Part shown: positions 49,151-57,383 of the stretch, piece after piece
How positions within the stretch are numbered: position 1 is the first letter of the stretch
How the letters are laid out: every line of letters starts with the position of its first letter
Source: Pseudarthrobacter sp. fls2-241-R2A-127
Lineage (GTDB): Bacteria; Actinomycetota; Actinomycetes; Actinomycetales; Micrococcaceae
Length of the DNA stretch: 64,000 nucleotides
NCBI RefSeq assembly: GCF_030209355.1
Contig: NZ_JARVSF010000029.1
Location: 1 to 64,000, forward strand
Direction of reading: 5' to 3'
Notes under the pieces: model-generated
What the model saw: only the letters and a program-made list of their open reading frames with translations
Database searches by the model: none
Told to the model about the DNA's origin: nothing
Program-made: the position numbers and the translations under genes

Positions 49151-49621
49151 TTAGCAGCCCTCGAAGTCGGTGAGGACCTTGACCTTGCCCGCGGAGGCCG
49201 ACGCCGGATCGAACGTGTAGCCGATCCATTCCCTGGCGAGGCGGCGGGCGAGTTCGATGCCCACCACGCGCTGGCCCATGGTGAGGACCTGGCAGTCATT
49301 GGAGAGGATGGACCGCTCCACCGAGAAGGAATCGTGGGCTGCGGTGGCGCGGATGCCGTCCACTTTGTTGGCGGCGATGGCAACGCCGATTCCGGTACCG
49401 CAGAACAGGATGGCCCGGTCAGCGGCGCCGTCCCGGATCATTTCCCCGGCAGTGATGCCCACGTACGGGTAGGGCCTGGTGAAGTCCTCCGGCGCATCGC
49501 TCCGGTTGACGCCGATGTCGATGACTTCGCTGACGCGCGGATCGTTCCGCAGGTCAGCCAGGACCTTGTCCTTATAGTCCACGCCCGCTTCATCGGCGCC
49601 CACAATGAGCCGCAGCCCCAT
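49151..49621 (-). CDS. RpiB/LacAB-family sugar-phosphate isomerase, DerI/EryI-like
   Basis: The ATG at 49621 has AAGGA seven bases upstream (MGLRLIVGADEAGVDYKDKV), giving 156 residues. An ATG at 49642, overlapping the kinase stop, is also possible. The RpiB fold is clear: GADEAGVDYKD, the active-site loop AILFCGTGIGVAIAANKVDG with the catalytic Cys, and the anion-binding VLTMGQRVVGIELARRL. In erythritol and threitol catabolism, RpiB-like enzymes (EryI, DerI) convert D-erythrulose-4-phosphate to D-erythrose-4-phosphate. Placement next to a DhaK-type kinase and a dehydrogenase supports such a C4 role over ribose-5-phosphate. It is the last gene of the minus-strand operon. Confidence 0.88.
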   Translation of the reverse strand: MGLRLIVGADEAGVDYKDKVLADLRNDPRVSEVIDIGVNRSDAPEDFTRPYPYVGITAGEMIRDGAADRAILFCGTGIGVAIAANKVDGIRATAAHDSFSVERSILSNDCQVLTMGQRVVGIELARRLAREWIGYTFDPASASAGKVKVLTDFEGC

Positions 49622-49638
49622 GGTGTTTCCTTCCGTTG

Positions 49639-51384
49639 TCATTGCCTGGCTCCCGCCGGAGCGGTGCTGGTGGTGGTGAAATGCGGTCCCATGACGGCGA
49701 AGACCATGGCGAGGGACGTGGCGCCGGGATCGGCCGTGCCCAGGCTCTTCTCCGCCAGCGGACGGGCGCGGCCCTTGAGGGGCAGCAGGTCGGAGGTTGC
49801 CTCCGCCGCGGCAGCGGCTTCGCGGGCAGCGTCCTGCCAGGCCAGGCCCGGCTCGGCGCCGTTGGCCACCGCGCGGCTGAACGTGGAAGCGAACGGCAGC
49901 AGCGCGTCCACCATGGTCTTGTCGCCGATTTCGGCCTTGCCCAGTTGCACGATGCGGTCCGCGAACGCCGTCACGGCGGCCGTGAGGACGGCAGCCTCGG
50001 GTGCGGAGGCGTTTCCTACCGTCTCGCCGAAGGAGCGGAGGCCGGCGCCCCAGAGGACTCCGGAGGTGCCGCCGGCTTTGTCGGCCCAGGCGTCCCCGGC
50101 CGCAGCCAGTACGTCGCCGGCACCTGCCCCGGCGGCCAACGCGGCGGATGCTGCGGCAGTGGCTGCATCCACTCCGCGGACCATGCCGCGGCCATGGTCG
50201 CCATCGCCGGCGATGGCATCCATCCGGCCCAGCCGATCCTCTGCCTCGTGCAGCAGGGAACGCGCCGCACCAATGGCCTCGACGCAGGCCACGGCGTATG
50301 CACGGGAGGCGTCCGTGGCGACGTACGCGGCCTGGTCGGCGCCGTCGTCGTCCACTTCCCGGGCGCCCAAAGCGCCCGTTTCCCGGGCAGCGGTGCCCCG
50401 ACGGTACGCGGGGGTCTCCGCGGGGGCTGCCCACAGTGGTTCCAGTTCCTCATCAAGCCAGGTGACGGTCAGCGAGACGCCGGCCATGTCCAGGCTGGTG
50501 ACCAGCTCTCCGACCTCAGGCATCACGATCGTGTAGCCGGCGGCGCGCAGCAGCGGCGCCACGGTTCCCCAGAGGACGAAGAGTTCCTCGTGCTTGGTCG
50601 AGCCGAGCCCGTTGAGGATCACGGCGATCCGCTTCCCGGCGGTGGGCGGTGTTTCGGCGAGGACCCGGGCCACCAGTTCGTGCCCGAGGTCCTTGGCGGA
50701 GGGCAGGTCGGTGTCGTGCAGGCCCGGTTCGCCGTGGATGCCCAAGCCCAGGCCCATCTGGCCCTCGGAAAGGGTGAACAAGGGTGATTGGGCGCCCGGG
50801 AAGGTGCACCCGGCAAAGGCACTGCCGATGGTGCGGGTGAGCTCGTTGGCCTTGCGGCCCAGGCGGACCACCTCGGCCAGGTCCGCGCCGCCCTCGGCAG
50901 CCGCGCCCATAACCTTGAAGACCGTGAAATCACCGGCGATGCCGCGGCGTTTGGCGGATTCCGACGGCGCGGCGCTGGCGATGTCGTCAGTCACCAGGAC
51001 GTTCTCCACGGCGATGCCCTCGGCGGCCAGCCGTTCGCTGGCCATGCCGAAGTTCATCACGTCTCCGGCGTAGTTGCCGTAGGTGAAGACGACGCCGGCA
51101 CCGGACTCGGCGGCCTTGGCGACGGCGTAGGCCTGCTGGGCCGAGGGTGAGGTGAAGATGTTGCCCACCACCGCACCGTCGGCGAAGCCCGCTCCGATCA
51201 GTCCGGCGAAGGCCGGGTAGTGCCCGGAGCCGCCGCCAGCGAGGACGGCAACCTTGGGCTTTGCCGGCCGGAAACGGCGGACGGCGCCGCCGGGAACCTG
51301 CCGGACCAGGTCAGAGTGCACATCGCAGAATCCGGCGAGGGCTTCCTCGGCGAAGTCTGATGGGTCGTTGAAGATCTTTGTCAT
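49639..51384 (-). CDS. Fused DhaK-DhaL-type ketose kinase
   Basis: This 581-residue protein fuses a DAK1 substrate-binding domain (residues about 1-330) with a DAK2 ATP-binding domain (about 375-565). DAK1 shows LAGGGSGHYPAFAG and His217 in GLGIHGEPG, which binds the ketose covalently. DAK2 shows the metal-binding AGDGDHGRGM near residue 412. ATP-dependent single-chain kinases of this kind phosphorylate dihydroxyacetone, D- or L-erythrulose, or related short ketoses. In this locus, between an RpiB-like isomerase and an SDR dehydrogenase, a C4 ketose or branched ketose is likely. It is cytoplasmic, and transcribed after the SDR gene with 32 bases between them. Confidence 0.92.
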   Translation of the reverse strand: MTKIFNDPSDFAEEALAGFCDVHSDLVRQVPGGAVRRFRPAKPKVAVLAGGGSGHYPAFAGLIGAGFADGAVVGNIFTSPSAQQAYAVAKAAESGAGVVFTYGNYAGDVMNFGMASERLAAEGIAVENVLVTDDIASAAPSESAKRRGIAGDFTVFKVMGAAAEGGADLAEVVRLGRKANELTRTIGSAFAGCTFPGAQSPLFTLSEGQMGLGLGIHGEPGLHDTDLPSAKDLGHELVARVLAETPPTAGKRIAVILNGLGSTKHEELFVLWGTVAPLLRAAGYTIVMPEVGELVTSLDMAGVSLTVTWLDEELEPLWAAPAETPAYRRGTAARETGALGAREVDDDGADQAAYVATDASRAYAVACVEAIGAARSLLHEAEDRLGRMDAIAGDGDHGRGMVRGVDAATAAASAALAAGAGAGDVLAAAGDAWADKAGGTSGVLWGAGLRSFGETVGNASAPEAAVLTAAVTAFADRIVQLGKAEIGDKTMVDALLPFASTFSRAVANGAEPGLAWQDAAREAAAAAEATSDLLPLKGRARPLAEKSLGTADPGATSLAMVFAVMGPHFTTTSTAPAGARQ

Positions 51385-51416
51385 GGTGGGGCTTTCTGGC
51401 GCTGCCGGGACGACTG

Positions 51417-52190
51417 CTAGTGGATGTGGCTGCCGCCGTTGATGTCGACGGTGGTGCCGGTGAGGTAGGCCGAGTCCTCGGAGGACAGGAAGGCAATCAC
51501 CGAGGCCACTTCCTCGGTGGTGGCGTTGCGGCCCAGCGGGATGCCGGCGTTGATGGCTGCCTCCTGCTCCTCGGTGCTGCCCACGCGGATGTTGGTGTCC
51601 ACGGCGCCGGGGGTAATGGCGTTGACGGTGACGCCGGTGGTGCCGAGTTCACGGGCCAGGGCCTTGGTGAAGCCCAGGATGGCTGCCTTGGCAGCGGAGT
51701 AGGGCACCTTGCCGAAGACGCCGCCGCCGCGCTGGGCGGACACGGAGGACATGTTGACGATCCGGCCCCAGCCGTTGTCGATCATGTCCGGCAGGAAGGC
51801 CTTGGTTACCAGGTAAGTGCCGGTGGCGTTGACGTCCATGACCTTGTGCCACAACTCAAGAGTGGTCTCCAGGAACGGGATGGGCGAGGTGATGCCGGCG
51901 ATGTTGGCCAGGGCGCCGACGGGCGGGAGGTTGCCGGCGGCCACTTCGGCGGCGACGGCGGCCTGGGCGGCGGTGACGGAGGCCTCGTTGGCGACGTCGA
52001 CCTCGTGGCCGAAGGCGGGGACATTGAATTCGTTGCCGATTTCGGCGGCGACCTTGGCGGACTTCTCGCCGTCGAGGTCCAGGATGACGATGCCCCAGCC
52101 GTCGCGGGCGTAGCGGCGGGCGGTGGTGATGCCGATGCCGCGGTCCGAGGTTGCCCCGGTGAGGACGGCGGTGCGCTGGATGGTGGTCAT
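51417..52190 (-). CDS. SDR-family dehydrogenase, polyol-dehydrogenase-like
   Basis: The ATG at 52190 has AAGGAG nine bases upstream and gives 257 residues. The classical SDR motifs are present: AVLTGATSDRGIG for NAD(P), ALANIAG, the catalytic Ser in MSSVSAQRGG and YSAAK with Tyr and Lys; VNAITPGAVDT follows. Asp residues after the second strand (VILDLDGEKSAKV) favour NAD over NADP. Sugar-alcohol dehydrogenases such as D-threitol dehydrogenase belong here, so oxidation of a tetritol to erythrulose is a good guess. It follows the TIM-barrel isomerase gene, separated by a very long hairpin at 52219-52276. Confidence 0.9.
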   Translation of the reverse strand: MTTIQRTAVLTGATSDRGIGITTARRYARDGWGIVILDLDGEKSAKVAAEIGNEFNVPAFGHEVDVANEASVTAAQAAVAAEVAAGNLPPVGALANIAGITSPIPFLETTLELWHKVMDVNATGTYLVTKAFLPDMIDNGWGRIVNMSSVSAQRGGGVFGKVPYSAAKAAILGFTKALARELGTTGVTVNAITPGAVDTNIRVGSTEEQEAAINAGIPLGRNATTEEVASVIAFLSSEDSAYLTGTTVDINGGSHIH

Positions 52191-52218
52191 GGTGGTGCTC
52201 CTTGTAATTGTTCTTGTG

Positions 52219-52276
52219 TCGATTGCTCCGTATTTGTCGTTTTGAGGCGTCAAAACGACAAGTACGGAGCAATCGA
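52219..52276. repeat. 27-bp inverted repeat in the C4-sugar operon
   Basis: Arms 52219-52245 and 52250-52276 are complementary at 26 of 27 positions with a 4-base centre (GGCG). The outer part carries TCGATTGCTCCGTA and the inner part TTGTCGTTTTGA. It is far longer than a normal terminator, lies between two genes of one operon, and could be a mobile palindrome, an RNase-processed hairpin or an operator. Confidence 0.8.
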
Positions 52277-52288
52277 TGGAGGTGGGGC

Positions 52289-53113
52289 TCAGATGAGGTC
52301 GGTGATGAAGCTTGCTGCCTTGGCGGCGGCTGCCGGGCGTTCGTCATTGGTGACGTCCCGGGTTTCCAGTTCGAGCGAGAAGTGGCCGGTGTACCCGTCG
52401 GCGGCCAGGCGTTTCAGGCCACCGGCGAAGTCGGCGTCCCCGTTGCCGATGCTGAGGTTGATGTTCCCCGGCACGGCGTCCCTGAGGTGGACGTGGCTGA
52501 TGCGGCCCTGGTGCCGGTCCAGGTAGGCCTGGATGTCCTCGCCGGCGGCCACAATGTGGCTGAAGTCCATGACGATTCCGACGCCGGAGCCCGCGAGGCG
52601 GTCCGCCAGGAGTCCCGCGCGCTCCAGGTTCCAGGAGAACCGCAGGAAGTGCAGGGATTCGGTCCAAAGTTCGACGCCGGACTCCGCCGCCCGCCGTCCC
52701 GCACCGATGAGCTGGGCGGCTACGAGGTCCAGGTCCTCCTCGACGCTCCGGACCGGGGTGTGGTCCAGGGCGCCACAGGGAAGCACCAATGCCTTCGCAC
52801 CGATCTTGGCGGTGAGCGTAAGCAGGGCGTCAAGGTGGCGGTCCCGCGCAGCCTGGCCTTCGGCGTCGAGCACTCTGTTCAGGTCCCCGATGTCGCCGTT
52901 CACGGAGCGGACCCGCAGGCCGGACGCGTTGACTTCAGCGGAGACTGAGTCGACCGCCGCAGGGCTGAGCTCGTACGGCACATGGTCGCAAACGCCGGGC
53001 AGGGCGCCCAAGTCGATCTCGTCGAACCCCAACCCCTTCATGGTGTGCAGGGCGCTGCCCAGCTCCTGGTGCCGGAAGCTGATGGAGGAGCACCCGAGTC
53101 TGGAATGGAACAT
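52289..53113 (-). CDS. TIM-barrel sugar isomerase/epimerase (AP_endonuc_2 family)
   Basis: The second ATG (53113) is best placed behind GAGGA and gives 274 residues. The fold is xylose-isomerase-like, with metal ligands recognisable in ELWTESLHFLRFSWNLE (Glu, His), GIVMDFSHIVAAGED (Asp, His) and HVHLRDAVPGNIN (His, Asp), and Glu in HFSLELETRD. Members include hydroxypyruvate isomerase, L-ribulose-5-phosphate 3-epimerase and D-apiose isomerase. In this operon it could interconvert a C4 or branched C5 sugar. It is the first gene of the minus-strand operon and is divergent from the transporter across a large GntR-type operator. Confidence 0.88.
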   Translation of the reverse strand: MFHSRLGCSSISFRHQELGSALHTMKGLGFDEIDLGALPGVCDHVPYELSPAAVDSVSAEVNASGLRVRSVNGDIGDLNRVLDAEGQAARDRHLDALLTLTAKIGAKALVLPCGALDHTPVRSVEEDLDLVAAQLIGAGRRAAESGVELWTESLHFLRFSWNLERAGLLADRLAGSGVGIVMDFSHIVAAGEDIQAYLDRHQGRISHVHLRDAVPGNINLSIGNGDADFAGGLKRLAADGYTGHFSLELETRDVTNDERPAAAAKAASFITDLI

Positions 53114-53170
53114 CATTGATCCTCTGGTTCGTGCCGAGCTTTAGTGATGGAGACCACAATAGCTTCGGTA

Positions 53171-53209
53171 ACTGTCAACAGTCAACTCCGAAAGTTGACT
53201 GTTGACAGT
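53171..53209. promoter_or_regulatory. GntR-type operator, perfect 17-bp arms
   Basis: ACTGTCAACAGTCAACT (53171-53187) and AGTTGACTGTTGACAGT (53193-53209) are perfect complements around CCGAA. It sits between the divergent isomerase and transporter starts. Related half-sites occur at 53242-53258 and 56684-56697, so one regulator, the GntR protein at 56724, probably binds all three. Confidence 0.88.
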
Positions 53210-53241
53210 GAAAATGATCTGGGTCACACTGGGGTCGTATC

Positions 53242-53258
53242 ATTTGTTAACAGTCGAC
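53242..53258 (+). promoter_or_regulatory. Second GntR-type site before the transporter gene
   Basis: TTGTTAACAGTCGACAG shares TGT[T/A]AACAGTCGAC with the site before the regulator gene (56684-56700). It lies 43 bases upstream of the transporter start, where a bound repressor would block transcription. Confidence 0.65.
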
Positions 53259-53300
53259 AGCGGCGGAACTCCTCCAGCCGCTTTTCGAAAGGGAACCACC

Positions 53301-54638
53301 ATGAGCAAAGATGCTCTGACCATGCGCGGGCCGGTCCACGGCACCAAGGACGCCCGGCGAGTTGCCATCGGATCCGGCGTGGGGGCCGTCATCGAGACGT
53401 ATGACTTCATCGGCTTCGGCACCGCTGCCGCACTGTACTTCGGCACCGCATTCTTCCCAGGAACCGATCCCGTGACGGGCACCCTCGCTTCCTTCGCCAC
53501 CCTCGGTGTCGGCTTCGCTGCGCGCCCTCTCGGCGGCATCATCGGCGGGCACCTCGGTGACAAGGTGGGCCGCAAGCCCGTCCTGGTTGCCTCGCTGATC
53601 CTGATGGGCCTGGCCACGTTCGCCATTGGCCTGCTCCCCACCTACGCGGCGGTTGGCCTGCTGGCCCCTGCACTGCTGGTGTTCGTCCGCATCGTCCAGG
53701 GCCTGGCCTTCGGCGCGGAGTGGGGCGGCGCCATCCTCATGAGCTACGAGCACGCCCCCTGGAAGGCCAAGGGCAAGTACACCGGCATTGTCCAGGCCGG
53801 CTTCCCGGTGGGCCTGCTGCTGGCCAACCTGGTCTTCCTCTTCAGCGTCCAGCTCGGTAACGAACTGGCCTGGCGGATTCCGTTCCTCGCCAGCATCCTG
53901 CTGGTCATAGTGGGTCTGGTCATCCGTTCCAAGGTCCCCGAGTCCCCGGTCTTCGACGAGGTGAAGGACAGCGGCGCCATCGTCAAGGCCCCCATCGTCG
54001 AGGTCATCAAGACCGACTGGCGCAACATCGTCAAGGGCATCGGCCTGCGCATCGCCGAGACGGCCGGCTACGCAGTATCCATCACGTACATGATTTCCTA
54101 CCTCAACAGCCAGCACCTGGCGGACAAGACCCAGACGCTGATCGCACTCTGCATCGCCTCCGCCATCGGCATCTTCGCCACGCAGGCCTGGGCAGCACTG
54201 ACGGACCGCATCGGACGCCGTCCCCTCTACGTGTGGTCCACGGCGTTCGCAGCCCTGTTCGCCATCCCGATGTTCCTGCTGGTCAACACCGGCCTTTTCA
54301 TCGCCATCATCCTCACCATCGTGATCTCCTACGCCGTGTGCCAGAACTCGCTGGCCGGCGCCCAGGGCGCCTGGTTCCCGGAGCTCTTCCAAGCCAAGAC
54401 CCGTGCGTCCGGCGCCAGCCTGGCCTACCAGATCTCGGCCATGGTCTCCGGTTTCACCCCCTTCATCACCACCCTGCTGTTCGTCAGCTTCGGCTGGATG
54501 GGCCCCGCGCTGCTCTTCGGCGCCTACGCCTTGATCGGACTCTGGGCCGCCGTCGCCACCCGGGAAACCTGGGGCAAGCGGGAACGCGAACTGGCTGACG
54601 AGGCCACCAAAAGCACCCCGAACACCGTCAACGCCTGA
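53301..54638 (+). CDS. MFS transporter of the metabolite:H+ symporter (MHS) type
   Basis: The ATG at 53301 follows AAAGGG and gives 445 residues. It has twelve membrane segments. The MHS-type signatures are AIGSGVGAVIETYDFIGFGT at the start, then GGHLGDKVGRKPVLVASL after segment 2 and FGAEWGGAILMSYEHAP. This class takes up organic acids, polyols and betaines with protons. As the first gene of the plus-strand operon with split transketolase, and sharing an operator with the catabolic genes, it should import the substrate of the pathway. The next gene starts a few codons after its stop. Confidence 0.92.
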   Translation: MSKDALTMRGPVHGTKDARRVAIGSGVGAVIETYDFIGFGTAAALYFGTAFFPGTDPVTGTLASFATLGVGFAARPLGGIIGGHLGDKVGRKPVLVASLILMGLATFAIGLLPTYAAVGLLAPALLVFVRIVQGLAFGAEWGGAILMSYEHAPWKAKGKYTGIVQAGFPVGLLLANLVFLFSVQLGNELAWRIPFLASILLVIVGLVIRSKVPESPVFDEVKDSGAIVKAPIVEVIKTDWRNIVKGIGLRIAETAGYAVSITYMISYLNSQHLADKTQTLIALCIASAIGIFATQAWAALTDRIGRRPLYVWSTAFAALFAIPMFLLVNTGLFIAIILTIVISYAVCQNSLAGAQGAWFPELFQAKTRASGASLAYQISAMVSGFTPFITTLLFVSFGWMGPALLFGAYALIGLWAAVATRETWGKRERELADEATKSTPNTVNA

Positions 54639-54674
54639 ATGACCACCACGCACAAAACGACCACGGAGCCAGCA

Positions 54675-55598
54675 ATGCCTACAGACACCGTCCAGGACGC
54701 CCCGCAGGGACAAACACTGCAGGGCCAACCACTGCAGAATGCGGTAACTCCAGAACGGCTGGAGAAGATCAGCGCCGCCGCGTACCGGATCCGGCACCAC
54801 GCCCTTAACATGGGCGAGGTGCAGGGTCAGGGGTATGTGGGCCAGGCCCTGGGAGCCGCGGACATGCTCGCCACGGTGTACGGGGACCAGTTGCGGTTCC
54901 GCGCCGAAGATCCGCACTGGGAGGCCCGCGACCGGTTCCTGCTCTCCACCGGCCACTACGCCATTGGCCACTACGCGGCGCTGGCCGAGGCCGGGATCGT
55001 CCCGGTGGAGGAACTGGAAACCTACGGCTCGGATGACTCCCGGCTGCCGATGTCCGGGATGTCCACCTACACGCCCGGCATGGAAATTTCCGGCGGTTCG
55101 CTGGGCCACGGCCTGACCATCGCCGTCGGGATGGCGCTGGGCCTGCGCTACCAGGGCTCATCCGCCCGGGTGTTCAACTTCCTCTCCGACGGCGAGCTGG
55201 ACGAAGGCTCCACCTGGGAGGCGGCGATGGGCGCGCACCACCACCAGCTGGGCAACCTGACCGCCATGGTGGACATCAACGCCCTGCAGGCGGACGGCAA
55301 GACCGACACGGTGCTGCGCACCGAGCCCGTCACCGAGAAGTGGGAATCGTTCGGCTGGTACACCCAGCGGGTGGACGGGAACGACGTCGGCGCGCTGCTG
55401 GCAGCGTTCGACAACGCAGCTGCCCAGGCCGCCGCCGTCGGACGTCCGTCCGTGATCCTGTGCGACACCAAGGTGGGCCGCGGCGTTCCGCTGCTGGAAG
55501 ACCGCGAGAAGGCGCACTTCATGCGCATCGAAGAGAACGAATGGCAGATCTGCCGCGAGCAGCTCACTGCCGGCTACGAAGGAAAGGCTTCAGCATGA
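54675..55598 (+). CDS. Transketolase, N-terminal subunit (split type)
   Basis: The ATG at 54675 (MPTDTVQDAPQGQTLQ) has CGGAG upstream and gives 307 residues; an ATG at 54639 abutting the previous stop is less likely. This is the thiamine-diphosphate-binding half: GHYAIGHYAALAEAG, PGMEISGGSLGHGLTIAVGM and the TPP motif FNFLSDGELDEGSTWEA ending in DINALQADG. The second half is encoded by the next gene with a four-base overlap. Split transketolases serve anabolic or specialised pathways such as D-apulose-4-phosphate cleavage (AptAB). Here it would process the phosphorylated sugar made by the kinase. Confidence 0.92.
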   Translation: MPTDTVQDAPQGQTLQGQPLQNAVTPERLEKISAAAYRIRHHALNMGEVQGQGYVGQALGAADMLATVYGDQLRFRAEDPHWEARDRFLLSTGHYAIGHYAALAEAGIVPVEELETYGSDDSRLPMSGMSTYTPGMEISGGSLGHGLTIAVGMALGLRYQGSSARVFNFLSDGELDEGSTWEAAMGAHHHQLGNLTAMVDINALQADGKTDTVLRTEPVTEKWESFGWYTQRVDGNDVGALLAAFDNAAAQAAAVGRPSVILCDTKVGRGVPLLEDREKAHFMRIEENEWQICREQLTAGYEGKASA

Positions 55599-56605
55599 GC
55601 ACCACCACGACGACGGCCACACCCGCCAAGCCCAAGCTGAAGACCTCGGCGATGATCGCCTCGTTCGCCGACCCCGGCCAGAAGACCTCCAACGCCCCGT
55701 TCGGGCATGCCCTGGTCAAGGCCGCCCAGGAAAACGACAAGATCGTTGGCCTGACCGCGGACCTGGGCAAGTACACGGACATGCACATCTTCGCCAAAGC
55801 CTTCCCGGAGCGGTTCTTCCAGATGGGCATGGCCGAGCAGCTGCTCTTCGGTGCAGCCGCGGGCCTGGCCGAGAGCGGGCTGGTGCCGTTCGCGTCCACC
55901 TACTCGGTGTTCGCCGCCCGCCGCGCCTACGACTTCCTTTGCCTGGACGCTGCCGAGCCGAACCTGAACGTCAACATCGTGGGCGGACTGCCCGGCCTGA
56001 CCACCGGGTACGGCCCCAGCCACCAAGCCACCGAGGACATGGCGATCTTCCGCGGCATGCCCAACCTGACCATCGTGGACCCCTGCGACTCGGTGGACAT
56101 CGAGCAGGCCATCCCGCAGCTCGCGGCGTCGGCAGGCCCCACCTACCTGCGGCTGCTGCGTGGCAACGTGCCCACCGTCCTGGACGAGTACGGCTACACG
56201 TTTGAACTCGGCAAGGCCAAGGTCCTCCGCGGGGGCAGTGACGTTGTGTTCATTTCCTCCGGCCTGATGACCATGCGCGCCCTGCAGGCAGCCAAGGCGC
56301 TGGCGGCACACAACGTGGAAGTCGCCGTCGTGCACACCCCCACCATCAAGCCGTTCGACGCCGAAACCGTCCTCAAGGAGGTCAACACCGACCGCTTGGC
56401 CGTCACCCTGGAAAACCACTCCGTGGTGGGCGGCCTGTTCGAAACCGTCGCCTCCGCCGTCGTCACCGCGGGCGTGGGCAAACGCGTGGTACCAATCGCC
56501 CTGCCGGACCAGTTCCTGGACGCCGGCGCCCTGCCTACGCTGCACGACCGCTACGGCCTGGCCGTGGACAGGATCGTGGCCAAGGTCCTCGCCGAGCTCG
56601 GCTAA
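55595..56605 (+). CDS. Transketolase, C-terminal subunit (split type)
   Basis: The ATG at 55595 overlaps the stop of the N-subunit gene and has AAGGAAAGG upstream, giving 336 residues. It contains the pyrimidine-binding domain with the catalytic Glu in MGMAEQLLFGAAAGLAESG, then GYGPSHQATEDMAIFRGMPN and the C-terminal domain ending VLAELG. It must assemble with the N-terminal subunit to form the active site. Acceptor specificity cannot be read from sequence. Erythrose-4-phosphate from the RpiB-type isomerase, or a branched ketose phosphate, are both natural substrates for a transketolase in this locus. Confidence 0.92.
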   Translation: MSTTTTTATPAKPKLKTSAMIASFADPGQKTSNAPFGHALVKAAQENDKIVGLTADLGKYTDMHIFAKAFPERFFQMGMAEQLLFGAAAGLAESGLVPFASTYSVFAARRAYDFLCLDAAEPNLNVNIVGGLPGLTTGYGPSHQATEDMAIFRGMPNLTIVDPCDSVDIEQAIPQLAASAGPTYLRLLRGNVPTVLDEYGYTFELGKAKVLRGGSDVVFISSGLMTMRALQAAKALAAHNVEVAVVHTPTIKPFDAETVLKEVNTDRLAVTLENHSVVGGLFETVASAVVTAGVGKRVVPIALPDQFLDAGALPTLHDRYGLAVDRIVAKVLAELG

Positions 56606-56683
56606 AGGCACGCGGATGGAGAAAGCACGGCACCGGTCCTGCGCCGGCGCCGTGCTTTCTGCCGTACTATCGAAATCACTACC

Positions 56684-56697
56684 GACTGTAAACAGTC
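56684..56697 (+). promoter_or_regulatory. GntR-type operator before the regulator gene
   Basis: GACTGT AA ACAGTC is a perfect palindrome with a 2-base centre, followed by GAC. It lies 26 bases before the regulator start, so autorepression is likely. Confidence 0.78.
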
Positions 56698-56723
56698 GAC
56701 TTATGACATTGAGGACAGAAGCC

Positions 56724-57383
56724 ATGGCCGGACTCACCGCCCCGCTGCTGGGACTGGAAAAGAAAAGCCTGCGCGAGCAGGCGCTCTCGGCACTGAGGAC
56801 CGCCATCACCAGCGGTGAGCTGGAACCCGGCCGGCACCTCGTGGAGACCGAACTGTCCGAGATGCTGCAGATCAGCCGCGGCACCCTGCGCGAAGCCCTC
56901 CGCCAGCTGGAGCAGGAGGGCCTGCTGTCCGCCGGTCCCCGCGGCCGCCTCTCCGTCAGGCACCTGGACGAAAAGGAAATCCGGGACATCTACTCGGTCC
57001 GTGCAGCCCTGGAGTCACTGGCTGCCCGGACCCTGTGCGAGCTCCCGGACCGCCAGCATGTCACCGAGTCGCTGCACCAGGCCATCGACGCCATGACTGC
57101 GGCAACCGGCGGGACCCTTGAAGAACGCATCGAATCCGATCTCGAGTTCCACCGCACCCTCTGCCGGCTCACCGGCAACGAAACCCTCCTCCACTCCTGG
57201 GAATCCCTGGAGGGCTCCATCCGCATGTCCATCATGTTCGCGGGCCTCGAAAAGGGCGTCAGCAACATGAGCGTGGACCGCCACAAGGACATCGTGGCCG
57301 CCATCGACACCGGTGACGCCACCCTGGCGCGGAAGACCATCCTGGAACACATGGACACCGCCGCCGCCAACCTGGTGGCGTGA
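56724..57383 (+). CDS. GntR-family regulator of the FCD type
   Basis: The ATG at 56724 (MAGLTAPLLGLEKKSLREQA) has GAGGA eight bases upstream and gives 219 residues; ATG 56703 would add seven. The winged helix spans residues 12-75 (LVETELSEMLQISRGTLREA, LRQLEQEGLLSAGPRGRLSV). The FCD domain follows with its metal-binding Asp and His residues (SDLEFHRTLCRLTGN, and DRHKDIVAAIDTGD). FCD regulators respond to sugar acids, sugar phosphates or other carbon intermediates. It closes the plus-strand operon. Palindromes of one family at 53171-53209, 53242-53258 and 56684-56697 make it the probable local repressor. Confidence 0.92.
   Translation: MAGLTAPLLGLEKKSLREQALSALRTAITSGELEPGRHLVETELSEMLQISRGTLREALRQLEQEGLLSAGPRGRLSVRHLDEKEIRDIYSVRAALESLAARTLCELPDRQHVTESLHQAIDAMTAATGGTLEERIESDLEFHRTLCRLTGNETLLHSWESLEGSIRMSIMFAGLEKGVSNMSVDRHKDIVAAIDTGDATLARKTILEHMDTAAANLVA

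Follow-up and report, generated by a model that had tools for sequence, protein, structure and literature searches.

Gene content and operators of the locus

The window, a stretch of 64,000 nucleotides from Pseudarthrobacter sp. fls2-241-R2A-127 (NZ_JARVSF010000029.1, positions 1 to 64,000), holds at positions 49151–57383 eight open frames arranged in two divergent groups. The minus-strand group encodes a TIM barrel protein, a short-chain dehydrogenase/reductase (SDR), a fused DhaK-DhaL kinase (DhaKL) and an RpiB-like protein, and the plus-strand group encodes an MHS-family symporter, the N- and C-terminal halves of a transketolase (TKN and TKC) and a GntR regulator. An earlier note on this DNA had named these eight classes and their divergent layout; the layout is borne out by the open frames, and every class by Pfam (LacAB_rpiB, Dak1 + Dak2, SDR, AP_endonuc_2, MFS, Transketolase_N, Transket_pyr + Transketolase_C, and GntR + FCD).

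TKN (54639–55598; PF00456) and TKC (55595–56605; PF02779 and PF02780) follow the symporter gene (53301–54638), whose product is shikimate-transporter-like; its best NCBIfam models are of the MHS/shikimate-transporter type, with scores below the cut-offs (TIGR00883, 340 bits; NF007414, 301 bits). On the minus strand, the TIM barrel (52289–53116; PF01261) is xylose-isomerase-like, and the SDR (51417–52190) carries the signature SSVSAQRGGG and a C-terminal GGxxIH. DhaKL (49639–51384; Dak1 and Dak2) scores 744 bits on NF011049 (cut-off 492), consistent with a kinase of the erythrulose/dihydroxyacetone type. The gene of the putative RpiB/DerI-type sugar-phosphate isomerase (49151–49621; PF02502, 128 bits) starts near 49621, nested in a larger frame (49151–50434). 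This protein scores 162.6 bits on TIGR02133 (cut-off 168.2) and 132.8 bits on the DerI model NF051858 (cut-off 240).

A repeat search located inverted repeats resembling GACTGTTNACAGTC at 53170–53183 and 53197–53210, which together form an operator region in the divergent gap (53170–53210), and a third copy, GACTGTAAACAGTC, at 56684–56697 upstream of the GntR gene. The three sites give six strand-wise matches, against 0.84 expected, and none of 100 shuffles reached six. An exact match to GACTGTNNACAGTC is present in 56 of 80 relative loci, which are the best 80 of the 152 relatives found in a genome scan with the TIM protein and form the base for the locus counts below. Judged from these sequence statistics, the operator shared by both divergent operons, also claimed in the earlier note, is real. 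The GntR gene (56703–57383, plus strand; PF00392 and PF07729) probably starts at 56703 or 56724 rather than at 56616, because the operator and a hairpin recognised by eye between TKC and GntR (56620–56660; perfect 12-nt arms at 56620–56631 and 56649–56660) precede it, and because five relatives (L006, L018, L024, L029 and L067) have the long frame interrupted by in-frame stops within roughly its first 39 codons. Given this later start with an operator and a hairpin upstream, GntR may be transcribed separately, as its own transcript. The regulator would repress both divergent operons as well as its own gene.

Conserved and variable genes among relatives

A comparison of genome neighbourhoods, as suggested in the earlier note, found the locus conserved in relatives of Arthrobacter and in some mycobacteria. 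The 80 loci come mostly from Arthrobacter, Pseudarthrobacter and Paenarthrobacter, with three from Mycobacterium/Mycolicibacterium, and the TIM protein is present in 48 of 295 genomes of the host's family. Intactness was scored on 82 loci (the best 80 plus L176 and L203). The gene order is conserved; all eight genes are intact in 49 loci, and five of them (MHS, SDR, TIM, TKN and TKC) in 77. Counted gene by gene, TIM and SDR are intact in 81 loci each, TKN in 79, TKC and MHS in 78 each, GntR in 76 (an undercount because the long frame served as the query), RpiB in 59 and DhaKL in 55. The median identities of intact copies are 89–91% for TKC, TKN, SDR and MHS, 87% for GntR and RpiB, 81% for TIM and 78% for DhaKL.

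Both DhaKL and RpiB are absent or broken in 18 of the 82 loci although the available sequence runs on for more than 8 kb past the SDR gene (L001, L015, L022, L027, L028, L030, L032, L038, L043, L049, L056, L058, L061, L075, L076, L078, L079 and L176). This count includes L022, which has a 10-N gap at the DhaKL/RpiB position, and L049, a frameshift-ridden assembly. Altogether 23 loci were without intact DhaKL and RpiB, and five were dropped: the sequences of L008, L010 and L054 stop about 1.2 kb, and that of L025 about 2 kb, beyond the SDR gene, and DhaKL of L031 is frameshifted. L047 retains RpiB only. The locus L176 (AP018698.1) has the order TIM-SDR-MHS-TKN-TKC-GntR with no kinase and no RpiB; this six-gene core sits on a plasmid of Arthrobacter that is classed as mobilizable. 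Because the pair is missing from these 18 loci while the transketolase stays, the comparison of gene content indicates that the transketolase is part of the core, along with MHS, SDR and, in Actinobacteria, TIM, and that the DhaKL kinase and the RpiB isomerase are accessory. An obligatory DhaK kinase within the locus is ruled out by the same comparison.

Copies elsewhere were searched for in 17 genomes, namely those of 16 of the 18 loci lacking the pair and that of L025. Another DhaKL (53–60% identity) and a DerI-like RpiB (56–66%) were found in 15 of them. The other two genomes, G297 (L025) and G308 (L078), contain DhaKL and RpiB only as broken remnants or distant homologues, and all remaining genes of their loci score intact.

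L004 is the sole otherwise intact locus without the transketolase, and the same genome has TKN and TKC (95% identity) elsewhere, adjoining genes for an FCD-domain regulator and an ABC-type binding protein. A model of two alternative exits, with the transketolase lost from L004 and DhaKL/RpiB kept, was dropped for this reason. In one genome of Pseudarthrobacter enclensis (L204; G708:C2:270000-286000), TKN and TKC lie apart from the locus; their neighbours there are an ABC-type solute-binding protein and an FCD-domain regulator that differs from that of the locus.

Elsewhere in the host genome, C59 and C33 each carry a further DhaKL-RpiB pair, accompanied by a TpiA-like protein and an ACS-type MFS transporter that both score below model cut-offs; no TpiA-like gene occurs among the eight window genes. 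The window RpiB is 55–61% identical to the RpiBs at C59 and C33 and 28–29% identical to the host's other two RpiB-family proteins. The sequences support a reading of DhaKL-RpiB as an erythrulose kinase/isomerase pair, and the two further pairs with TpiA-like proteins keep a tetrulose intermediate plausible as a side branch. The C59 region (L199 4660-16044; G000:C59) encodes two SDRs of the signature type, a PF01261 TIM barrel, DhaKL, RpiB, 3-hydroxyacyl-CoA-dehydrogenase-like and TpiA-like proteins, and two MFS transporters. A Shinella frame (L172:3216-5318) encodes a single protein in which HTH-like matches and a sugar-binding regulator domain are fused to a DhaK domain.

Active site of the transketolase and its partners in Proteobacteria

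The earlier note had likened the split transketolase to AptAB of the D-apiose pathway. TKN and TKC are only 34% and 31% identical to AptA and AptB of E. coli SE15 (locus tags from PMC13001218) and their active sites differ, so that identity with AptAB is ruled out by direct comparison. In a quick tree of N-terminal halves, printed without support values, the window protein and proteobacterial members grouped together and were separated from AptA and from other split transketolases; L143 (49% identity) lies closest to this group from outside. Relatives of the N-terminal half at 58–66% identity reside on proteobacterial plasmids, and relatives of the C-terminal half of Skermanella (E 1e-100 or better) occur in 188 of 72,556 plasmid records. 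L202 (G559:C1:708000-727000) contains a distant actinobacterial relative of the N-terminal half (49%), within an open frame of 688 aa that has two SDR frames next to it.

H66, D155, N185, H261, E411 and H473 (E. coli TktA numbering), which we take to be the cofactor and catalytic residues of transketolase, are present in the window pair and, wherever the alignment spans these columns, in family members (the N-terminal half of L185 is partial). Most of the positions that contact the sugar phosphate of the substrate in the E. coli enzyme are substituted. Across 27 aligned members, hand-chosen from the best matches, H26, H100, S385, H461 and D469 are uniformly replaced by Tyr, Ser, Tyr, Leu and Tyr (27/27), and R520 is retained. 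R91 is changed to Gly and I189 to Ala in at least 95% of members. H26 and H100 are retained in all 31 other transketolases compared, with L143, which shares the Tyr and the Ser, set aside. These substitutions do not fit a transketolase dedicated to erythrose-4-phosphate, which the earlier note had considered.

Several of these sites have been targets of enzyme engineering. The S385Y/D469T/R520Q variant is reported to have arisen in shifting E. coli transketolase from phosphorylated to unphosphorylated aldehydes (PMC5073344). D469Y is described as giving 8-fold activity towards propionaldehyde and reversing the enantioselectivity, and H461S as helpful with glycolaldehyde (PMC3657141). R358I/H461S/R520Q reportedly raised the activity towards 5-keto-gluconate by 55% (PMC12016104), and a variant with H100L and D469T enables pyruvate use according to PMC10787763. 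Substitutions such as D469Y and S385Y, and others at H461, R358, H100 and R520, have served to redirect E. coli transketolase to unphosphorylated aldehydes, 5-keto-gluconate or pyruvate. The resemblance of the natural subfamily to these variants is suggestive, not proof.

The partners of the transketolase were counted in 22 plasmid loci of the transketolase/SDR family. The window SDR is 41–46% identical to the SDRs that adjoin the same transketolase in Proteobacteria, and an SDR with the SVSAQRGGG signature is encoded in 21 of the 22 loci; the exception, L171, has a threonate-dehydrogenase-like protein instead. From sequence comparison, the SDR and the transketolase appear to be orthologous to the proteobacterial pairs. 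A profile of 13 SDRs, including that of the window, matches the Protein Data Bank (PDB) entries 7krk/7krm at E 2e-128, the runner-up reaching 6e-69; the window SDR alone shows a weaker preference (186 bits vs 165 for the next). On the GolD/DthD model it reaches 144.2 bits (cut-off 286). DhaK was found in two of the 22 loci and RpiB of the window type in none; together with the 18 loci described above, this speaks against the kinase and the isomerase as the backbone of the system, the role in which they had been cast in the earlier note.

The transporters, of organic-anion type in all 22 loci, belong to the TRAP (16), ACS (four) and MHS (two) types, the ACS assignment of L170 resting on only 23% identity to the reference used. 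The best NCBIfam model for the transporters of L170, L174 and L192 is that of the D-galactonate transporter (TIGR00893, 250–342 bits; cut-off 395). The TRAP binding proteins of L181 and L189 have 4p9k/4pak, 4p47, 4pdh, 4nq8 and 7bbr as closest PDB entries, and an overlapping set of structures appears in PMC11668362, either in the open state or with pantoate, erythronate or sugar acids as ligands. A beta-hydroxyacid dehydrogenase at least 39% identical to that of Skermanella is encoded in eight of the 22 loci; the three that were scanned have the L-threonate dehydrogenase as best model (205.9–315.8 bits; cut-off 350). A lactonase resembling L-fuconolactonase in L177, L189 and L193 (104–141 bits; cut-off 400) points to lactones and acids. 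The TIM barrel received no specific name from NCBIfam or PDB searches; its AlphaFold model has a pLDDT of 82.7, and its Foldseek neighbours are generic sugar epimerases and isomerases. Equating it with the rhizobial TIM barrels was rejected for want of a clear sequence relationship.

In L175 (15654-17633), L181 (14865-16844) and L184 (13800-15788), a second, full-length transketolase with Asn at 469 and Pro or Ala at 385 lies near the split one, accompanied by a D-2-hydroxyacid dehydrogenase. This full-length enzyme may likewise have a specialised function.

Proposed route and alternatives

Organic-anion-type uptake, an SDR and a transketolase devoid of the usual phosphate site are common to the loci. 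Cleavage of a ketol derived from a small sugar acid is the preferred reading. We give about an even chance (roughly 0.5) to the reading that the locus serves the catabolism of a small hydroxylated, aldonate-like acid around a kinase-independent transketolase step. The MHS symporter would bring the acid in, NAD(P)-dependent oxidation by the SDR would follow, and the product would be isomerised or decarboxylated by the TIM barrel to a terminal alpha-hydroxyketone. The two-part transketolase would then cleave this ketol, handing two of its carbons to an acceptor and leaving a short aldehyde or keto acid as the other product. As an optional exit, a tetrulose (erythrulose) would be phosphorylated by DhaKL and converted to erythrose-4-phosphate by the RpiB-like enzyme. 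Candidate substrates are a tetronate such as erythronate or threonate, which would be split to glyoxylate; a pentonate, which would yield erythrulose; and a branched acid of the apionate type.

Two known systems bear on this reading. In the sulfo-transketolase pathway for sulfoquinovose (SqwGH, SqwI), a transketolase acts on an unphosphorylated ketose with an anionic group, and a PF02502 isomerase is proposed in the account of PMC9594981. The likeness is one of description; the locus differs in having no sulfonate enzyme among its eight genes, in its SDR, MHS and TIM core, and in that its PF02502 enzyme is accessory. The second is the tetronate pathway, whose genes we take to be LtnD/DtnD, OtnI, OtnK and OtnC. 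A threonate-dehydrogenase-like protein and a TIM barrel lie near some proteobacterial versions of our locus, otnK is annotated in L182, and otnK and a class II aldolase-domain gene adjoin the Pararhizobium locus. In contrast, neither a DUF1537 kinase (OtnK) nor an aldolase (OtnC) is present among the eight window genes, which have a transketolase instead.

Several points weigh against the acid-cleavage reading. Loss of the phosphate-site residues makes the choice of acceptor uncertain, glyceraldehyde-3-phosphate being the obvious one. R520 is retained, though it was removed in several engineered variants, and the R358 position is alignment-dependent (a gap in one alignment, Ala in another). 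Acid uptake through MHS, ACS and TRAP transporters is assumed from family names and general knowledge; these families carry other substrates too, and the MHS and ACS model scores fall below the cut-offs. PMC11668362 itself warns that most ligands of crystallised TRAP proteins were co-purified, and a sugar-type ABC transporter is present in the proteobacterial loci L177, L185, L189 and L193. The TIM barrels of Rhizobiaceae and Arthrobacter have no clear sequence relationship. In 15 of the 17 genomes searched, the paralogues of DhaKL and RpiB may supply the kinase step in trans. Finally, the subfamily has a patchy distribution, since only three of 396 genomes drawn from the phylum, the host included, have the N-terminal half at 77% identity or more.

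Somewhat more tentatively, we propose that this scattered yet widespread and so far undescribed subfamily has naturally evolved an active site of the kind sought by directed evolution, suited to unphosphorylated substrates and possibly with reversed stereoselectivity, and that with its dedicated SDR it constitutes a kinase-free, two-enzyme route for a sugar acid from plants or soil in Actinobacteria and Proteobacteria. Partial coverage of the literature, in which most matches were judged from brief entries, yielded no recognised description of the cluster. The earlier note was right to suspect that these genes together do not make up a textbook pathway. If unphosphorylated acids are the substrates, the locus would add a further logic of carbohydrate-acid breakdown beside the kinase/aldolase routes, common to soil and plant-associated bacteria. 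It would also offer a ready-made enzyme for chiral ketol synthesis and allow more precise names for genes currently annotated as transketolase, glucose 1-dehydrogenase or 3-oxoacyl-ACP reductase. By its sequence, 7krk/7krm, deposited as a 3-oxoacyl-ACP reductase, seems to be a member of the SDR family with a known structure, and its real substrate could then be examined.

The alternative that survives best, though we regard it as unlikely, is a tetritol (D-threitol) route as in Mycolicibacterium smegmatis (DthD, DerK/LerK, LerI, DerI), which according to PMC12780249 ends in erythrose-4-phosphate after three or four steps. The SDR would form D-erythrulose, DhaKL would phosphorylate it, RpiB would yield erythrose-4-phosphate and the transketolase would dispose of the latter. 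The three DhaKL-RpiB pairs of the host, the fused DhaK-DhaL kinase (its substrate predicted from sequence) and the sub-cut-off match of RpiB to the DerI model agree with such a route. However, the SDR does not belong to the GolD/DthD family by its score, the transporters are of the organic-anion type, and the TpiA-like partners occur at C59 and C33 and not at the window locus. Moreover, it is the kinase and the isomerase that are often missing while the SDR and the transketolase are retained as core, and the phosphate-site residues of the latter are substituted.

Rather less probable is a transketolase that builds instead of cleaving, in which hydroxypyruvate or a related keto acid and a small aldehyde would give erythrulose for assimilation by DhaKL and RpiB. 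Both of these enzymes suit erythrulose, the loss of H100 recalls the pyruvate-using H100L/D469T variant described in PMC10787763, and the D-2-hydroxyacid dehydrogenase and second transketolase adjoin the core in L175, L181 and L184. This scheme needs DhaKL and RpiB, yet they are missing in many loci and, as intact genes, in two genomes.

We consider it improbable that the transketolase cleaves a branched ketol acid or ketose phosphate of the apiose/apionate type. The D-apiose pathway likewise has a split transketolase and cluster SDRs, AptB has Tyr at site 469, and a TIM barrel could serve there as a decarboxylase or isomerase. As regards ApsI, the D-apiose isomerase, the TIM barrel protein (P0004) has a match to the AP_endonuc_2 superfamily only. 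In contrast to the window pair, AptA retains H26 and H100 and AptB has Gly at 520, in addition to the low identities given above. An FGGY kinase and an ABC transporter characterise the apiose side, and Pfam and NCBIfam found no FGGY-family apulose kinase (AplK) among the eight window genes.

Finally, an ordinary extra pentose-phosphate or pentose locus with a redundant transketolase would account for the fact that every enzyme comes from a known family, but it is very improbable given the uniform change of substrate-site residues in the 27 members, the retention of H26 and H100 in the 31 other transketolases, and the coupling of a dehydrogenase and a transporter to the transketolase in 22 plasmid loci.

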